Source of the DNA: Candidatus Rokuibacteriota bacterium | GTDB lineage: Bacteria > Methylomirabilota > Methylomirabilia > Rokubacteriales > CSP1-6 | Assembly: GCA_003221695.1 (NCBI GenBank) | Contig: QHSX01000042.1 | Location: 62,001-126,000, forward strand | Reading direction: 5' to 3' | DNA length: 64,000 nucleotides | Part shown: piece by piece, positions 44,477-64,000 of the stretch | How positions within the stretch are numbered: position 1 is the stretch's first letter | Layout: each line of letters opens with the position of its first letter | The notes under the pieces: generated by a model | Databases searched by the model: none | What the model was told of the DNA's origin: nothing | Seen by the model: the letters and a program-made list of their open reading frames with translations, nothing else | Position numbers and translations under genes: made by a program

Positions 44477-45271
44477 ATGCTGAGCCTCAACAACGTCGAG
44501 GTCATCTACGACGGCGTGATCCTCGTGCTGAAGGGGGTGTCGCTCTCGGTCCGCGAGGGGGGGATCACGACCCTGCTCGGCGCCAACGGCGCCGGCAAGA
44601 CGACGACCCTCAAGGCGATCTCGGGACTCCTGCGCTCAGAGCGCGGCGAGGTCACGAAGGGCTCGATCGAGTTCAAGGGGGCGCGGATCGATCGTCTGGC
44701 GCCGCACGAAATCGTCGCGCGGGGGATCGTCCAGGTCTTCGAGGGGCGGCGCGTCTTCGAGCATCTGACGACGGAGGAGAACCTGGTCGCGGGAGCGCAC
44801 GTCCAGCCGGACCGCCGCAAGGTGCAGGAGGGGATCGCGCGCGTCTACGAGTACTTCCCGCGGCTCCGCGAGCGGCGCACGATCCAGTCGGGCTATCTCT
44901 CCGGCGGCGAGCAGCAGATGCTCGTCATCGGCCGGGCGCTCATGGCCAACCCGCAGGTGATGCTGCTCGACGAGCCCTCCCTCGGCCTCGCGCCGATGCT
45001 GGTCGAGGAGATCTTCGCCATCGTCCGGGAAATGAACCGCCGGGAAAAGCTGACCGTGCTCCTGGTGGAGCAGAACGCGGCGCTCGCGCTCCAGATCGCC
45101 GAGCAGGGCTACGTCATGGAGAACGGGCGCATCGTGCTCGACGGTCCGGCGGACGCGCTCAGGGAGAACGCGGATATCAAGGAGTTCTATCTGGGCCTCA
45201 CCGAAGTGGGTGCCCGGAAGTCGTACCGGGACGTGAAGCACTACAAACGCCGCAAACGGTGGCTCTCCTAG
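44477..45271 (+). CDS. livF: Liv-type ABC transporter ATPase LivF (module B)
   Basis: The 264-residue ATPase has Walker A GANGAGKTT, VQVFEGRRVFEHLTTEENL, the signature YLSGGEQQM, Walker B VMLLDEPSLGLAP and the basic tail RKSYRDVKHYKRRKRWLS. Only one residue of that tail differs from the module A LivF. It closes the second transporter module; the haemoglobin-like gene begins six bases later, with its ribosome site overlapping the livF stop. Confidence 0.93.
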   Translation: MLSLNNVEVIYDGVILVLKGVSLSVREGGITTLLGANGAGKTTTLKAISGLLRSERGEVTKGSIEFKGARIDRLAPHEIVARGIVQVFEGRRVFEHLTTEENLVAGAHVQPDRRKVQEGIARVYEYFPRLRERRTIQSGYLSGGEQQMLVIGRALMANPQVMLLDEPSLGLAPMLVEEIFAIVREMNRREKLTVLLVEQNAALALQIAEQGYVMENGRIVLDGPADALRENADIKEFYLGLTEVGARKSYRDVKHYKRRKRWLS

Positions 45272-45276
45272 GAGGG

Positions 45277-45726
45277 ATGAGACTGACACGGAGGTCCGGA
45301 GCACTCGTCGTGCTGCTGCTGTCGCTGGACTTCGTCGCCTGTGCCACCATGGGCGACCCTCCGCCCTCGCTCTACAAGCGGCTGGGAGGGCGTGACGGCA
45401 TCGCGCTGGTGGTCGACGACTTCGTCGCGAACATGGTCGCCGACCCTCGCGTGAACAATCGCTTCCAGGGCATGCCGCCCCCCGCGGTCTTCAAGCTCAG
45501 GTCGAACCTCGCCGACCAGATCTGCGACGCCACCGGCGGCCCCTGCTCCTACCTCGGGCGCGACATGAAGGCGACGCACCGAGGCATGCAGATCACCGAC
45601 GGCGAGTGGGACGCGACCGTCGAGAACCTGGTGCGGGCGCTCGACAAGCATCAGGTCGGCGCGAAGGAGAAGAGCGAGTTGCTCGGCCTGCTGGGCCCGA
45701 TGAAGGGCGAGATCGTCGGCCAGTGA
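45277..45726 (+). CDS. Group I truncated haemoglobin with a lipoprotein-type signal
   Basis: The 149-residue protein has a basic, hydrophobic N-terminus (RLTRRSGALVVLLLSLDFVA) ending in FVAC, a near-standard lipobox with Cys22. A truncated haemoglobin domain follows: LYKRLGGRDGIALVVDDFVA, DQICDATGGPCSYLGRDMK, and the haem-binding proximal His101 in KATHRGMQIT. It should bind oxygen or NO outside the cytoplasm. AGGAGGG directly before the ATG at 45277 overlaps the livF stop, so it is the last gene of the Liv operon. Exported truncated haemoglobins are uncommon, and its link to the transporter is unknown. Confidence 0.88.
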   Translation: MRLTRRSGALVVLLLSLDFVACATMGDPPPSLYKRLGGRDGIALVVDDFVANMVADPRVNNRFQGMPPPAVFKLRSNLADQICDATGGPCSYLGRDMKATHRGMQITDGEWDATVENLVRALDKHQVGAKEKSELLGLLGPMKGEIVGQ

Positions 45727-45752: not shown

Positions 45753-45840
45753 GTGGCGGTGCGAGCCGCAGCCGCCGGCGAGGCGAGTCTATGAATGTGG
45801 CGGTGCGAGCCGCAGCCGCCGGCGAGGCGAGTCTATGAAC
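45753..45840 (+). repeat. Two 44-bp leader-type repeat units ending on a start codon
   Basis: Units at 45753-45796 and 45797-45840 are identical except for the last base. Read from the ATG at 45791 they encode the 15-residue frame MNVAVRAAAAGEASL, whose TGA overlaps the next ATG (45835) as ATGA. That second ATG is the start of the ligase gene. The unit belongs to the family also found at 55857, 57985 and 62469. Confidence 0.8.
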
Positions 45841-47358
45841 ATGCACGTGCACGGATTCACGGTCTACGACATGATCGCGCGCGGCGCGTTCGTGTACGGC
45901 GACGCGCCAGCCGTTCTCCACGGTGACCGGCAGCTGTCCTTCCGGGAGTTTCGGCGTCAGGTTGACGCGCTCGCCGGGGGGCTCGTGGCTCTGGGCATCG
46001 GCAAGGGGGACCGCATCTGCGTCCTGGCGCAGAACGACACCGCCTACCTCGAGCTATACGGCGCCTGCGCGCGGCAGGGCATCGTCGCCTACCCGATCAA
46101 CTGGCGGCTGACCGCGCAGGAAGTGGAGCTTGTGGTGGACCGCGCTGCGCCCCGGATGATGGTGGTCGACACCTCCACGCTCCCCGTGGTGGCCGGCTGG
46201 CCGAAGGAGAAGCCGTCGGTCGCGCACTGGTATCAGTTCGGCGAGGCCAGTGGGCCGGCCTTCAAGCCCTTCGCCGCGCTGTACCGAACGGCCAGCCCGC
46301 CGCCCAGGCCCGCGGTGTCGGCCGACGACCCGTTCGCGGTGATCTCGACCGCCGCCGTGGACGTGATCCCGCGTGGCGCGGTGCTCACTCACGCCAATAT
46401 GATCGCGGCCAACCTGACCGCCATGGCCTCGATCGGCTACACCGCGGCGGATCGCTACCTGCTGGCGCTGCCGCTATTCCACATCACCGCGCTGGGGGGG
46501 GCGATCGCCCACATGCACGCCGGCGCTGCCAGCGTGCTGGTGTCGCGGTTCGACGCCGAGGAGGCCGTCCGGCTGATTGATCGCCACGCCGTCACCCACG
46601 TCTCGGACTTTCCCCCCGTGCTGACCAATCTGCTGGATGCGGCCGAGAAGCTGGGCAGCCGGTTGCCCAGCCTGAAGCACGTCTCCGGCCTCGACGCGCC
46701 CCAGACCATCGAGCGCCTGCACGCGCAAACCCGGGCGCAGTTCTGGACTGGCTTCGGGCAGTCGGAAACCAGCGGGTTCGTCACCCTGCAACGCGTGCGG
46801 GACAAGCCCGGCGCCGCCGGCAAGCCCGTGCCCGTGTGCGACGTGAAGCTCGTGGATGACGACGACCGCGAGGTGGACGTCGGGACACCAGGGGAGATCG
46901 TCGTGCGCGGCCCGCTCGTGTTCCAGGGCTACTTCGACCAGGCGGACGTGACGGCCTACACCCTCCGCAACGGCTGGCACCACACCGGGGACGTGGGGCG
47001 GTTCGACGCCGACGGCTACCTCTACTACGTCAAGCGCAAGCCGGAGAAGGAGCTGATCAAGCCCGGCGGGGAGAACGTCTACCCGGCGGAGGTCGAGACG
47101 GTGATCATGCAACTCCCGGGCGTGCGCGGGGTGTGCGTGTACGGCATCCCCGACGCCAAGTGGGGCGAGGCGATCAAGGCCGTGGTCGAGGTGACGGACG
47201 GCCGGTACACCGCCCAGCAGGTGAGCGACTTCGTGGCGTCGAAGATCGCCCGCTTCAAGCGGCCTCATGCCGTGGCGTTCACCGACGCCCTCCCGCGCAC
47301 CGCGGAGGGCGTGGTCGACCGGGAGGCCGTGAAGGCCAAGTGGGGTCACGCGCGGTGA
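45835..47358 (+). CDS. AMP-dependent acyl-CoA synthetase
   Basis: The 507-residue ligase has GDRQLSFREFRRQVDALAGG, the adenylate motif region with AVDVIPRGAVLTHANMIA, FGQSETSGFVTLQ, HHTGDVGRFDADGYLYYVKR and the catalytic-lysine loop KELIKPGGENVYPAE. The P-loop is odd: the usual YTSGTTG-PKG is replaced by ISTAAVDVIPRGA, so the phosphate-binding residues are mostly missing. That may reduce or change activity. The ATG at 45835 lies in the last repeat unit; an ATG at 45841 is also possible. It precedes a BadH-like dehydrogenase and may serve an alicyclic or aliphatic acid pathway. Confidence 0.87.
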   Translation: MNMHVHGFTVYDMIARGAFVYGDAPAVLHGDRQLSFREFRRQVDALAGGLVALGIGKGDRICVLAQNDTAYLELYGACARQGIVAYPINWRLTAQEVELVVDRAAPRMMVVDTSTLPVVAGWPKEKPSVAHWYQFGEASGPAFKPFAALYRTASPPPRPAVSADDPFAVISTAAVDVIPRGAVLTHANMIAANLTAMASIGYTAADRYLLALPLFHITALGGAIAHMHAGAASVLVSRFDAEEAVRLIDRHAVTHVSDFPPVLTNLLDAAEKLGSRLPSLKHVSGLDAPQTIERLHAQTRAQFWTGFGQSETSGFVTLQRVRDKPGAAGKPVPVCDVKLVDDDDREVDVGTPGEIVVRGPLVFQGYFDQADVTAYTLRNGWHHTGDVGRFDADGYLYYVKRKPEKELIKPGGENVYPAEVETVIMQLPGVRGVCVYGIPDAKWGEAIKAVVEVTDGRYTAQQVSDFVASKIARFKRPHAVAFTDALPRTAEGVVDREAVKAKWGHAR

Positions 47359-55856: not shown

Positions 55857-56285
55857 TTCGGCTGCGGCTCGCACTGCCAGGTTCACAGACTCGCCTCGCC
55901 TTCGGCTGCGGCTCGCACTGCCACGTTCACAGACTCGCCTCGCGGCGCGCGTCGCCGAGCCTCCGCGGGCGCCGCTCGGCTCGCACTGCCAGGTTCACAG
56001 ACTCGCCTCGCGGCGCGCGTCGCCGAGCCTCCGCGGGCGCCGCTCGGCTCGCACTGCCAGGTTCACAGACTCGCCTCGCGGCGCGCGTCGCCGAGCCTCC
56101 GCAGCCGCCGCTCGGCTCGCACTGCCAGGTTCACAGACTCGCCTCGCCTCCGGCTGCGGCTCGCACTGCCAGGTTCACAGACTCGCCTCGCGGCGCGCGT
56201 CGCCGAGCCTCCGCGGGCGCCGCTCGGCTCGCACTGCCAGGTTCACAGACTCGCCTCGCCTCCGGCTGCGGCTCGCACTGCCACC
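55857..56285 (-). repeat. Tandem leader-type repeats, 44- and 68-bp units, facing the PIG-L gene
   Basis: GTGAAC (minus strand) begins at 56246, 56178, 56134, 56066, 55998, 55930 and 55886, with spacings of 68, 44, 68, 68, 68 and 44. Short units encode 15-codon frames (MNLAVRAAAEGEASL-like) and long ones 23-codon frames with eight extra codons. Every stop overlaps the next start as GTGA. A partial unit lies at 56247-56285. The last unit fades into the ribosome site of the PIG-L gene. This array accounts for most of the 512-bp gene-free stretch 55841-56352. Confidence 0.85.
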
Positions 56286-56340
56286 GCCGTTTGGATCCTC
56301 GTGCTCAGGATACCGATTCCGAGGGCGTCGCGCGACCGGC

Positions 56341-56352: not shown

Positions 56353-58026
56353 ATGCCCGAGACCGCCGCCGGTCGAGTAGGGGTCGTCGTCCTGCTCGTG
56401 CTCCTCGCCGCGGTGGTCGTCGTACCGCTGCTTCCCGGCGATCCCGGCGCGGTCCGGCTGGCGGGCGTCGCCGTGCTCTGGTGGTTCGCCGCGGGCGCCG
56501 CGCCGGTCGTCGCCACCCTGACGGCCTGTGCCCTGTTCAGGCCACGCGGGAGCGTTGCGGCCGCGCGCGCCAACCCGACCGCCTCCCTCCGCGCCGTCGC
56601 GACGTGGGCGTCGCCCGTTGTGCTCACTGCCGTCGCCGCCTGCGTGTTTGCCGGGGCGCCCGAGGCGCCCATCCTGGTCCTCACCGTGGCCGTTGCGCCG
56701 CTCCTCGCGCTGCTCGCCCCCTCCGCCGACCCCGCGCCGTCGCTCAACCGGGTCGCCGGGCTCGCCGCTGGGGCCGCCGTCGGGCTCGTGCTATGGGCGA
56801 ATCTCGGCGTAGTCGCCGACCTCGCGCGCCTCGCGGGCGTCCCGCGCCACGCGGCACTCACGCTCTCGGCCGCGGCCGCGTTCTTCGGCGTGGGGTGGCG
56901 CGCGGCGCGCCGACCCGGCGGTGCGGTCATCCTCGCCGGCCTGGTGGGCGTCGTGCTTCCCCTCGTCGTGATCGGCGCCACGGTCGCCATCCCACCATGG
57001 ACCGCGTGGAGCCGCACGGCCTCACGAGCCGCGCTCACCTTCGGCGAGGGAAGCGTCTGGGTCACCGACGGACGTCGCCTGGAGCGGTCGGCGACCCTCG
57101 TTTTCACCGAGCCCCACCGCGTCACCGCGCTGAGTCCCGGTACGTATCGGGTGATCGAAGAGGTCGTCGAGAGGGACGCGCCGCGGACCGTCACGCGTGA
57201 GTGGTACCTCGCGGCGGGGGACGCGCTCACGCTGCGTCCGGGCGACCGGCTGGTCCTCGAGGCGGGCACGCAGGTCCGCTTCGAGAGGGGCAAGCGCGTA
57301 CCCAACAGCGCCGCGTCGGGCGTCGCCTGGGCCGAGCCGTCCGAGCGGCGCTCGCTCGGCACGGCGGCCCACGCGCTGGGCGTCGTGCTGACACTCGTCG
57401 GCGGCAGCCTCGCCCTGCTCCCGCGGCCGCGCGGACTCACATGGCGCCGCACCGTTGCCGGGTCCGTGCTCCTCCCGGGGCTGACGCTCGCCGCGGTCTC
57501 CTGGGGCGCGTACGGTGTGTACGCCGCGCCGGAACTCGCCCTCGGCGCGGCGCCGGCGACCGGGCTCGTGGAGCTGTCCGCGCTGGTCCTCCCGGCGCCG
57601 GTGGGTGGCGCCCTCGTCGCGACGAGTATCTTCGCCCTGCTCCTCCTCTTCGTCGCGACGGCCCTGGCGCTGCGGGGGGTCATCGCGACGCACGCCAAGC
57701 CGGAGAACGCGGACATCGCCTGGGGCGGCCTCGTGGTGGTCGCCGCCGTCGCGGGGCTTTGGCCTGCAGACCCGTGGCGCACCTGGCTCGCCGGCTGTGG
57801 CCTCGCCGCCGCGGCGGTCGCCGCCCCGCGACTCGCCGGTGGGGACGCGCGCTCCAGCCTCGTGGGCTCGCTCGCCGGCGCCGCGGCGTTCGTCGGCCTC
57901 ACGGCCGTCGGTGACCGGCTGCCGGCCTGGGCCGGCTCCGTGGCTGCGTACCCCGCGCTCCTCGCGGCACCGCTGGCGTGGATGGCCGTGCGAGCCGAGA
58001 CCGTCCGACGGGCGAGGCGAGTCTGA
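56353..58026 (+). CDS. Multi-span membrane protein of unknown function
   Basis: The 557-residue protein has about six N-terminal hydrophobic segments (residues 10-215). A soluble beta-rich region of some 120 residues follows ([60 protein letters not shown]), and then at least six more spans. The composition is very rich in Ala, Val and Leu. I do not recognise the family. The last residues ([14 protein letters not shown]) are encoded by a copy of the leader-type repeat, which therefore forms the C-terminus. A TATAAT six bases before the ATG suggests a leaderless message. Confidence 0.75.
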
Positions 58027-58086
58027 GATGAGCGGGCCGTGCGAGCCGAGACCGTGCGACGGGCGAGGCGAGTCTGAGATGAGCCT
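57985..58086 (+). repeat. Two 51-bp variant repeat units overlapping the end of a gene
   Basis: Units at 57985-58035 and 58036-58086 share the GTGCGAGCCG and GGCGAGGCGAGTCTG blocks of the 44-bp family but differ in the middle. The first unit encodes the C-terminus and stop of the membrane protein. The clearest difference inside the coding part is GTC versus GTG, both Val. The remainder of the gap to uvrA holds a palindrome and a weak promoter. Confidence 0.7.
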
Positions 58087-58148
58087 GAGTGAGCCCGCGC
58101 AACGATTCGCTGGCGAGGCCGCCGCGTGTGATCGGTGGGGGGTGTCGG

Positions 58149-61032: not shown

Positions 61033-62466
61033 GTGCGGCGGACCAGGATCGTCTGTACCCTCGGTCCCGCCAGCCAGAGCCGCGCCGAGCTCGACCGCCT
61101 GGTCGCCGCGGGCATGGACGTCGCCCGCGTGAACTTCTCCCACGGCACCCACGCCGAGCACGCCGAGGTCATCCGGCTGGTCCGCGAGGGCGAGGCCCGC
61201 TGGGGCCGGCCGATCGCGATCCTTCAAGATTTGCAGGGGCCGAAGATCCGCCTCGGCACCTTCGGGCCCGCGGGCGGCGCGCGGGTCGACCTCGAGCCCG
61301 GCCAGTCGTTCGCGCTCTGCGCGAAGCCCGTGGTGGGCACCGCGGAGCGCGCGTCGCTGAACCACCCCGAGTACCTCGCGAACGTCAGCCCGGGCGACCA
61401 GATCTGGATGGACGACGGCATGATCCAGCTCCAGGTGGAAGAGGCATCGCCGGAGGAGGTGCGCTGCCGGGTCGTCGTGGGGGGGCGCATCAGCGATCAC
61501 AAGGGGATCTCGCTCCCGCATGTGCCGCTCCCGGTTTCGTGCCTCACCGACAAGGACCGCGAGGACCTCCGCTTCGGCCTCGAGCACGCCGTCGACTTCG
61601 TCGCCGTCTCGTTCGTACGATCGGCGGCCGACGTCGGGGAGGTGCGGGACTTCCTGCGCGAGCTCGGTGCCGACGTGCCGATCGTCGCCAAGCTCGAGCG
61701 CCACGAGGGCATCCTGAACCTCCCGGACATCCTGCCCTCGGTCGAGGCGGTCATGGTGGCGCGCGGCGACCTCGGTGTCGACGTGCCGCTCGAGGACGTG
61801 CCCCATCTGCAGAAGGAGATCGTCCGGCAGGCGCGGGAGGCGGGCGTGCCGGTCATCGTGGCGACGCAGATGCTCGAGTCAATGGTCACCCACCTCCGGC
61901 CGACGCGCGCGGAGGTCTCGGACGTCTCGACGGCCATCTTCGACGGCGCCGACGCGATCATGCTCTCCGCCGAGACGGCCACGGGCCGGTACCCGGCGGA
62001 GGCGGTCGAGGTGATGGCCCGCATTGCCGAACGGGCCGAGCGGGCCGTCCTCGTGGACGAGACGCGCCGGCGGCGCCAGGAGCGAGTCGGCGTCGGGTTC
62101 TCCGAGGCGATCTCCACCGCGGCCTCCGCGGCCGCGCACGCGCTCGGGGCGCGCGCGATCGTCGCGTTCACGGAATCGGGCGCCTCCGCGCGCCTCATCT
62201 CCCAGGCACGTCCGGACGTGCCGATCATCGCGCTGACGCCGTTCGTCGAGGTCCAGCGGCGGCTCGCCCTGTGGTGGGGCGTGTCCTCGCGGCTCATCCG
62301 CAAGGTTCAGACGACCGACGAGATGATCGAGGAGGTCGAGGCGACGCTCCTTGGCGACGGGGCGGTCGGGCCTGGCGACGTCCTCGTCATCATCTCCGGC
62401 TCGCCCATGTGGGTGTCGGGAACGACGAACCTCCTGAAGCTCCACCGCGTGGGCGAGCGTCGCTGA
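61033..62466 (+). CDS. pyk: Pyruvate kinase
   Basis: The 477-residue enzyme makes pyruvate and ATP from phosphoenolpyruvate. Visible are RTRIVCTLGPASQSRAEL, GMDVARVNFSHGTH, ILQDLQGPKIRLG, the active-site block VPIVAKLERHEGILNLPDIL, MVARGDLGVDVP, ATQMLESMV and SAETATGRYP. The B domain and the C-terminal regulatory domain (ARAIVAFTESGASARLISQA) are both present. It starts on a GTG five bases after the uvrA stop. The leader-type repeat array begins two bases after its own stop. Confidence 0.95.
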   Translation: MRRTRIVCTLGPASQSRAELDRLVAAGMDVARVNFSHGTHAEHAEVIRLVREGEARWGRPIAILQDLQGPKIRLGTFGPAGGARVDLEPGQSFALCAKPVVGTAERASLNHPEYLANVSPGDQIWMDDGMIQLQVEEASPEEVRCRVVVGGRISDHKGISLPHVPLPVSCLTDKDREDLRFGLEHAVDFVAVSFVRSAADVGEVRDFLRELGADVPIVAKLERHEGILNLPDILPSVEAVMVARGDLGVDVPLEDVPHLQKEIVRQAREAGVPVIVATQMLESMVTHLRPTRAEVSDVSTAIFDGADAIMLSAETATGRYPAEAVEVMARIAERAERAVLVDETRRRRQERVGVGFSEAISTAASAAAHALGARAIVAFTESGASARLISQARPDVPIIALTPFVEVQRRLALWWGVSSRLIRKVQTTDEMIEEVEATLLGDGAVGPGDVLVIISGSPMWVSGTTNLLKLHRVGERR

Positions 62467-62468
62467 GG

Positions 62469-62776
62469 GTGGCGGTGCGAGCCGCAGCCGGAGGCGAGGC
62501 GAGTCTGTGAACGTGGCGGTGCGAGCCGCAGCCGGAGGCGAGGCGAGCCTGTGAACGTGGCGGTGCGAGCCGCGGCCGGAGGCGAGGCGAGCCTGTGAAC
62601 GTGGCGGTGCGAGCCGCGGCCGGAGGCGAGGCGAGCCTGTGAACGTGGCGGTGCGAGCCGCAGCCGGAGGCGAGGCGAGTCTGTGAACGTGGCGGTGCGA
62701 GCCGCAGCCGGAGGCGAGGCGAGTCTGTGAACGTGGCGGTGCGAGCCGCAGCCGGAGGCGAGGCGAGCCTGTGAAT
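62469..62776 (+). repeat. Seven tandem 44-bp leader-type repeat units
   Basis: Units begin at 62469, 62513, 62557, 62601, 62645, 62689 and 62733, exactly 44 bp apart with no spacers. From each GTGAAC the frame reads MNVAVRAAAGGEASL and ends in a TGA that overlaps the next GTG as GTGA. Differences between units are GCA/GCG, AGT/AGC and AAC/AAT, all synonymous in this frame. The last GTG (62771) is the start of the sensor gene. The array accounts for the 304 bases between pyk and that gene. Confidence 0.88.
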
Positions 62777-64000
62777 GCGGCCGTGCAGCGCCCGGGCCTC
62801 GCACGCGTCGCCCCGGTGCTCGTGGGACTCCTGGTGGTCTGGGTGGCGGGCGGGCTCTGGCTCGCGCGGCGCGGGGCGGAGCGGCACGAGGTCGTCGTGG
62901 CCGACACGGTCGCCGCCGTCCGCGCGCTCGTCGACGCCGCCGCGCGTGAGCTGCGCCGCGAGGCCGCGCTGCTCGCCAAGGATCCGGCCATCGTGGAGGG
63001 CGCGCTCAAGCACGACTGGGCGACGCTGGCGCGCGGCGCCTCGCCGAGGATGCTCGCGCTCACGCTGGAGCGGGTCGCCGACCTCCTCTGTGTCGTGGAC
63101 GCGACCGGCGCGCTGCTCGTCCAGGTGCCGGCGACGCCGCGGGTGGAGGGCCTTGCCCTTCCGCGGCCCGCCGAGGCCGTCACGCGTGTCGCCGTCGTGA
63201 ACAACCGCGCCTATCTCGTGGGGCTGGCGCCGCTGCCTGCCGGGATGGTCGTGGTCGGCCGACGCGTCGAGTCGCTCGCGCGGGTTCTCGACGGGCTGCC
63301 GTCACGACCCGCCGTGGTGGTGCTGGTGGAGGACCTGGCCGTCGGCGGGACGCTGCCCGGCGTGCCGCCGCGGGGCTGGCGGGACGCGGCGCGTGGTCGA
63401 CGCGTCACGGTCGACGGCCAGTCGTGGCTCGCGCGGCCGCTCGACGACACGGCGGGCGAGAGTCTCTGGGCGCTGGTCCCCGAGGGGGCCCGGCGCGTCG
63501 CGGAGCGACGGTTCTGGTTCGCCTGGGCGCTCTCGCTCGTCGCCGCGACGGGCGTCGCGCTGGTCGCGGGCGCTGTTGTCGCGCGCACGGCGCGAGCCGA
63601 GCCCGCGTGGCCGAGTCGGGCCGTCGGCGCGGGGGCCGCGGAGTCGGCGAGTGTCGGAGCGGGGGCCGGGTGGTCGGCGCCCACCATGGGTGGCCCGACA
63701 AAGGAGCGGGATGGCTCCGACACGCTCGAGGCGCTCCGCGCCGTCGCGGTCGCGACGGGCAACGGTGACGATCTCGTGGCCACCGCCGAGCGCACGCTCG
63801 AGGTCGTCTGCGGCGTCGCGCGGACGGCGTTTGGCGGCCTCTTCCGGCTCGACCCCGTGTCGCAGACGCTCGTGCTCGTCGCCCACCGAGGCTTCTCGCC
63901 CGAGGACGTCGCCGTGCTGCGCGTGCGCCCGCTCGACGCGAGCCACGTCGGCGAGGCGGTGCGCGCGGGTCACCTCATCCTGACCGACCTGACGCGGTCG
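62771..64000 (+). CDS. Membrane sensor with GAF domain, cut by the window end
   Basis: The visible 410 residues are open to the window edge. A membrane span at about 14-32 (APVLVGLLVVWVAGGLWLA), an extracytoplasmic sensor region to about 247 and a second span at about 249-271 are followed by a linker. A GAF domain begins near 320 (TLEVVCGVARTAFGGLFRLD, LVLVAHRGFSPEDV). A kinase, guanylate cyclase or GGDEF output would be expected beyond the window. The GTG start is in the last repeat unit, and the first residues (MNAAVQRP) resemble the repeat peptide MNVAVRAA, as if the gene start came from an extra, decayed unit. Confidence 0.8.
   Translation, partial: MNAAVQRPGLARVAPVLVGLLVVWVAGGLWLARRGAERHEVVVADTVAAVRALVDAAARELRREAALLAKDPAIVEGALKHDWATLARGASPRMLALTLERVADLLCVVDATGALLVQVPATPRVEGLALPRPAEAVTRVAVVNNRAYLVGLAPLPAGMVVVGRRVESLARVLDGLPSRPAVVVLVEDLAVGGTLPGVPPRGWRDAARGRRVTVDGQSWLARPLDDTAGESLWALVPEGARRVAERRFWFAWALSLVAATGVALVAGAVVARTARAEPAWPSRAVGAGAAESASVGAGAGWSAPTMGGPTKERDGSDTLEALRAVAVATGNGDDLVATAERTLEVVCGVARTAFGGLFRLDPVSQTLVLVAHRGFSPEDVAVLRVRPLDASHVGEAVRAGHLILTDLTRS

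Follow-up and report, generated by a model that had tools for sequence, protein, structure and literature searches.

A short tandem repeat (array 1 in Table 1) separates a globin-like gene from a ligase gene in the 64,000 nt stretch analysed here (the window), and its last unit runs into the ligase start codon. This raises the question of how a repeat comes to end exactly on a gene start, and how much of that start it brings with it. The first-pass annotation of the window proposed that the repeat inserts at gene starts or replaces them, carrying its own initiation site.

Read directly from the sequence, the two units of array 1 have the endings CTATGAAT (ATG 45791) and CTATGAAC (ATG 45835). 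As had been suggested, the ligase start codon lies at the end of the second unit: ATG 45835 opens a 507-aa frame encoding an AMP-binding ligase, and overlaps the mini-ORF stop (TGA 45836–45838). The same arrangement is found at 62771, where the seventh unit of array 2 ends in a GTG that opens the downstream frame; the first mini-ORF of this array begins with CTG 62463, which overlaps the stop codon of pyruvate kinase. TRF detected array 1 at 45753–45839 (100% matches) and array 2 at 62469–62786 (97% matches). Read from one start, a unit forms a 15-codon frame (44 = 3 × 15 − 1) whose TGA and the following NTG share a 4-nt overlap (NTGA), and every 44-nt unit boundary carries this NTGA. A GAGG lies 7 nt 5′ of each NTG and is a putative ribosome-binding motif; a search of this MAG for a 16S gene, for an anti-Shine-Dalgarno check, found none.

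Table 1. Repeat arrays and neighbouring features in window coordinates.
Feature	Position	Strand	Description and basis
Globin gene, bacterial-like	45259–45726	+	Upstream of ligase; PF01152
Array 1	45753–45838	+	Two 44-bp units between globin-like gene and ligase; direct sequence reading
Mini-ORF of array 1, MNVAVRAAAAGEASL then stop	45791–45838	+	Direct sequence reading
GAGGCGAGTCTATG	45824–45837	+	Shine-Dalgarno-like GAGG, 7-nt spacer, start codon ATG 45835–45837
AMP-binding acyl-CoA synthetase/ligase	45835–47358	+	Pfam PF00501, PF13193; start inside last unit
Array 3	55868–56291	-	Mixed 44- and 68-bp units
Array 4	57981–58090	+	Two 51-bp variant units at 3′ end of upstream ORF, not at uvrA start
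Pyruvate kinase	61033–62466	+	PF00224, PF02887; its TGA forms the left-hand junction with array 2
Array 2	62463–62773	+	Seven 44-bp units; last ends in GTG 62771
Uncharacterised gene opened by last unit of array 2	62771–64000	+	Runs past window end

Copies of the repeat are scattered through the genome, and the family they form is restricted to a single family of the soil bacteria Candidatus Rokubacteria. An 81-nt repeat query matched the window's own genome 74 times, and the named matches to the exact pattern across 84,980 species' genomes were all Candidatus Rokubacteria records. By BLAST (E ≤ 1e-8), the repeat occurs in 39 of 57 genomes of the host's family and in none of 38 elsewhere in the phylum. 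Three genomes (G011, G031 and G080) gave 72–123 first-look candidates each and few strong matches; these candidates probably belong to a subfamily of the repeat that has diverged. A literature search on Rokubacteria repeats returned nothing relevant.

Variants share common ends (GTGCGAGCCG...CGAGGCGAGYCTRTGA) and have different interiors, with forms of 44, 50, 53 and 68 nt as well as nested ones. Unit lengths are mostly 41–74 nt, and copy number varies between arrays. At four loci (L025, L031, L035 and L045), type A units are nested in a longer hairpin variant with outer ends CGCGGGGC...GGGGCCCCGCCGTCCGAGGCGAG. The sequences are high in GC, making open frames common by chance; with that background, the core frame agrees with the TGA in 172 of 198 elements, and a premature stop occurs in only one. 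This frame test is driven by the 44-nt class. A strict 3n+2 length, considered as proof of frame selection, found partial support, as just 8 of the 19 distinct lengths are in frame. RNA structure was rejected as a conserved feature: the main 44-nt type folds no more strongly than chance (z 0.20), and only the type C variants stand out, with strong hairpins (z −2.96).

Placement relative to genes was assessed at 91 array ends from many species, using the stretches around the repeats. A same-strand coding sequence lies directly 3′ of 88 of them. In 58 of the 91, the downstream coding frame (counted at ORFs of at least 100 codons) begins with the last NTGA, compared with 28% for ordinary NTGA sites in the same sequences. 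At 13 further array ends the mini-ORF finishes in another NTGA, which opens a frame of 162–512 codons, while about 20 of the 91 are neither clearly at a gene start nor chained to one. The coincidence of the repeat with gene starts is not due to chance, given the 74 matches in the genome, the shared strand at 88 of 91 ends and the in-frame opening at 58 of 91 against 28%. On the left side, a long upstream ORF has its stop no more than 160 nt from the core in 80 of 88 cases, most commonly as a TGA 11 nt before the core, and 46 of the left starts share bases with a stop. About a dozen arrays have TAG as their left end, with the nearest long-frame stop 2 nt before the core; here the element may supply the upstream stop. 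The gene start is not reached by two of the four window arrays: the last unit of array 3 is truncated just 5′ of where a minus-strand gene has its native ribosome-binding site, and array 4 lies as given in Table 1. The units of array 4 carry TCTGAGATGAG ends in place of TCTRTGA.

Insertion exactly at gene starts, as proposed, is borne out by empty sites in relatives at four junctions (hisB-hisH, trpE-trpG, globin-ligase and pyruvate kinase-62771). At the globin-ligase junction the site is empty in orthologues L059 and L061, and the globin stop directly overlaps the ligase start in species that lack the repeat (G006 and G018). The nearest ligase orthologue (G001, 90% identity) starts MNMDVHGF and has only an inverted element upstream. 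This element (L058) is of the hairpin type (C) and lies contrary to the usual orientation. At the pyruvate kinase-62771 junction, the array is present in two species, both of genus g1, and absent in 22 others; without it, the start of the downstream gene directly overlaps the pyruvate kinase stop. Among 30 hisB-hisH loci, nine carry the element, one a remnant, and seven have a direct GTGA overlap with a long open frame at the left. Spacers resembling GTGAGCCCATGA at this junction in G001–G003 (L088–L090) look like a leftover of the right end of the element. The trpE-trpG junction shows a direct NTGA overlap in 23 relatives (21 ATGA, 2 GTGA), and an element (one filled site) or in-frame remnant (one) is seen only in the two species of genus g13. 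The remnant (L200, G015) has ATGA and GTGA starts 23 nt apart, and an internal deletion leaves its mini-ORF in frame. We take the filled junctions to be insertions; precise loss may account for some of the empty ones.

The same junctions indicate how much of the gene start is foreign. In genus g13 trpG starts with GTG, and with ATG in most relatives; the gene at 62771 starts with GTG here and with CTG in its nearest relatives. At both genes the repeat therefore seems to provide the base with which the start codon begins, but it adds no coding sequence to the gene downstream. The idea that it carries its own initiation site thus holds in part, for the GAGG 7 nt before the NTG and apparently for that first base, but not for any first codons.

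A resemblance had also been pointed out between the first codons of the two genes (MNMHV and MNAAV) and those of the repeat peptide (MNVAV). It is partly native, as relatives without the repeat begin L/MSAAVRRPG at the 62771 gene. Left and right copies of the target start can be recognised at some elements. In trpG of G033 these are ATGATCCTGGTC and GTGATCCTGGTC, and in hisH of G020 they match across 16 nt with one change. Across 57 arrays, the left head fits the start of its own gene better than those of other genes (0 of 20,000 permutations; 46 of 20,000 without hisH); many copies show little or no duplication of the target. The better explanation of the resemblance is that the first codons of the target were copied into the head of the repeat, with the native similarity at 62771 (...SAAVRRPG) contributing.

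We consider the repeat likely to be a small mobile element, non-autonomous and directed at the NTGA stop/start overlap of co-directional neighbours, and its mini-ORF likely to keep these genes coupled. On insertion into such an overlap, the target start would be left in two copies, one on the left (NTGA and about 4–12 nt) and one on the right, on either side of a core some 34 nt long (GTGCGAGCCGCAG...GGCGAGGCGAGYCT). A mini-ORF of about 13–17 codons, longer in variants, would begin with the left copy; its TGA would overlap the right copy, which would continue to serve as the start codon of the downstream gene. Having finished the upstream gene, a ribosome could reinitiate first at the mini-ORF and then at the gene that follows, assisted by the GAGG 7 nt 5′, and the insertion would therefore be tolerated within operons. 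Arrays would arise later by tandem growth. The anatomy, the coincidence with gene starts, the empty sites, the conservation of protein starts and the phylogenetic spread are seen in the sequences themselves; mobility as the cause, translational coupling and ribosome binding are inferred from them. No mobilising enzyme was found, and no transposase could be tied to the repeat. Y1/RAYT (PF01797) was rejected as the mobiliser, being missing from this genome and its genus (none in G000–G003); it is present in 11 of 56 genomes of the host's family.

A selected regulatory leader, in which the mini-ORF array tunes downstream translation and selection adjusts the number of copies, is an unlikely alternative. 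It would fit the variable copy number, the well-spaced GAGG in every unit, and the higher mRNA that accompanied longer upstream repeat arrays at M. tuberculosis fpg1 (PMC2734929), but close relatives differ in presence or absence at a given junction, the downstream genes are unrelated, and the peptide head changes by locus. Far less probable still is that the repeat brings a start codon and first codons that replace those of the gene. The start-codon first bases at trpG and 62771, unlike those of relatives, are what such replacement would leave, yet the orthologue comparison that the first-pass annotation had set as a refuting check found the same N-termini without the repeat: HisH keeps MIA-DYGRGN almost throughout, TrpG keeps MILVIDNYDSF, and the 62771 product is alike. 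With the ligase N-terminus of G001 also nearly identical where only an inverted element is present, the strong form of replacement is refuted.

It is equally improbable that the repeat is a non-coding, REP-like hairpin spread by a Y1 (TnpA-REP) transposase, its location at start codons being a by-product of intergenic position. The strong folding of type C and the several left ends that read GTAG would suit a hairpin of this kind, but the main 44-nt type is unstructured beyond chance and the transposase is missing from the host genome and genus; the fixed orientation and exact NTGA position, both already observed, are unexpected for such an element and would refute it. The mobile-element reading can tentatively be taken further: the repeat may possibly belong to a second class of mobile repeats that target start codons, one of independent evolutionary origin, with a mobilisation system that recognises the TGA in stop/start overlaps, duplicates the target and supplies a ribosome-binding motif and the initial base of the start codon. 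If that were true, the element could spread through operons almost cost-free. More generally, the many filled and empty junctions offer a natural experiment on translational coupling that survives insertions, and on movement without a known transposase. Gene callers may misplace starts, or score mini-ORFs as genes, at repeat sites.

Among known systems, REP/BIME elements are likewise short, dispersed and non-autonomous, and hairpins are shared by some variants. The main Rokubacteria type differs in having no conserved hairpin, this being limited to type C, and in its strict orientation, its start-codon placement and a host genome and genus without the Y1 (TnpA-REP, RAYT) transposase. The enterobacterial RU-1/2/3 are also small mobile intergenic sequences with open frames; in the abstract that describes them (PMC2759123), they are longer (103–168 bp) and MITE-like, and placement at a stop/start overlap is absent from it.

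The closest likeness is to the mycobacterial MIRUs, which were reportedly described by Supply et al. in 1997. Both repeats are short (MIRUs 40–100 bp), interspersed, often tandem and located between genes, with varying copy number. In a 2025 review, MIRUs are presented as repeats that are apparently mobile and whose insertion at start codons couples an internal ORF to the gene at −4 spacing (PMC12548453); the corresponding 4-nt overlap with the downstream gene is seen here at 58 of 91 array ends directly and at 13 by chaining. In M. tuberculosis, a repeat array ends at the fpg1 start codon (PMC2734929). A 77-nt class I MIRU, its length likewise 3n+2, is described as a 5′ UTR (PMC2734929, PMC4128351). 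The repeat region at the rnc-fpg1 junction is missing in related species, and presence or absence at orthologous junctions is shown by the Rokubacteria repeat as well. The hosts differ, Rokubacteria being an unrelated phylum to which the exact pattern was limited among the 84,980 species' genomes. The Rokubacteria repeat seems to work like a MIRU but is not classed as one, its host being different and the likeness being drawn from descriptions; it suggests that the operon-spreading route of the mycobacterial type exists in an unrelated phylum too. To that picture the Rokubacteria repeat adds several filled and empty junctions across genera, heads that copy the target, and a changed first base of the start codon.
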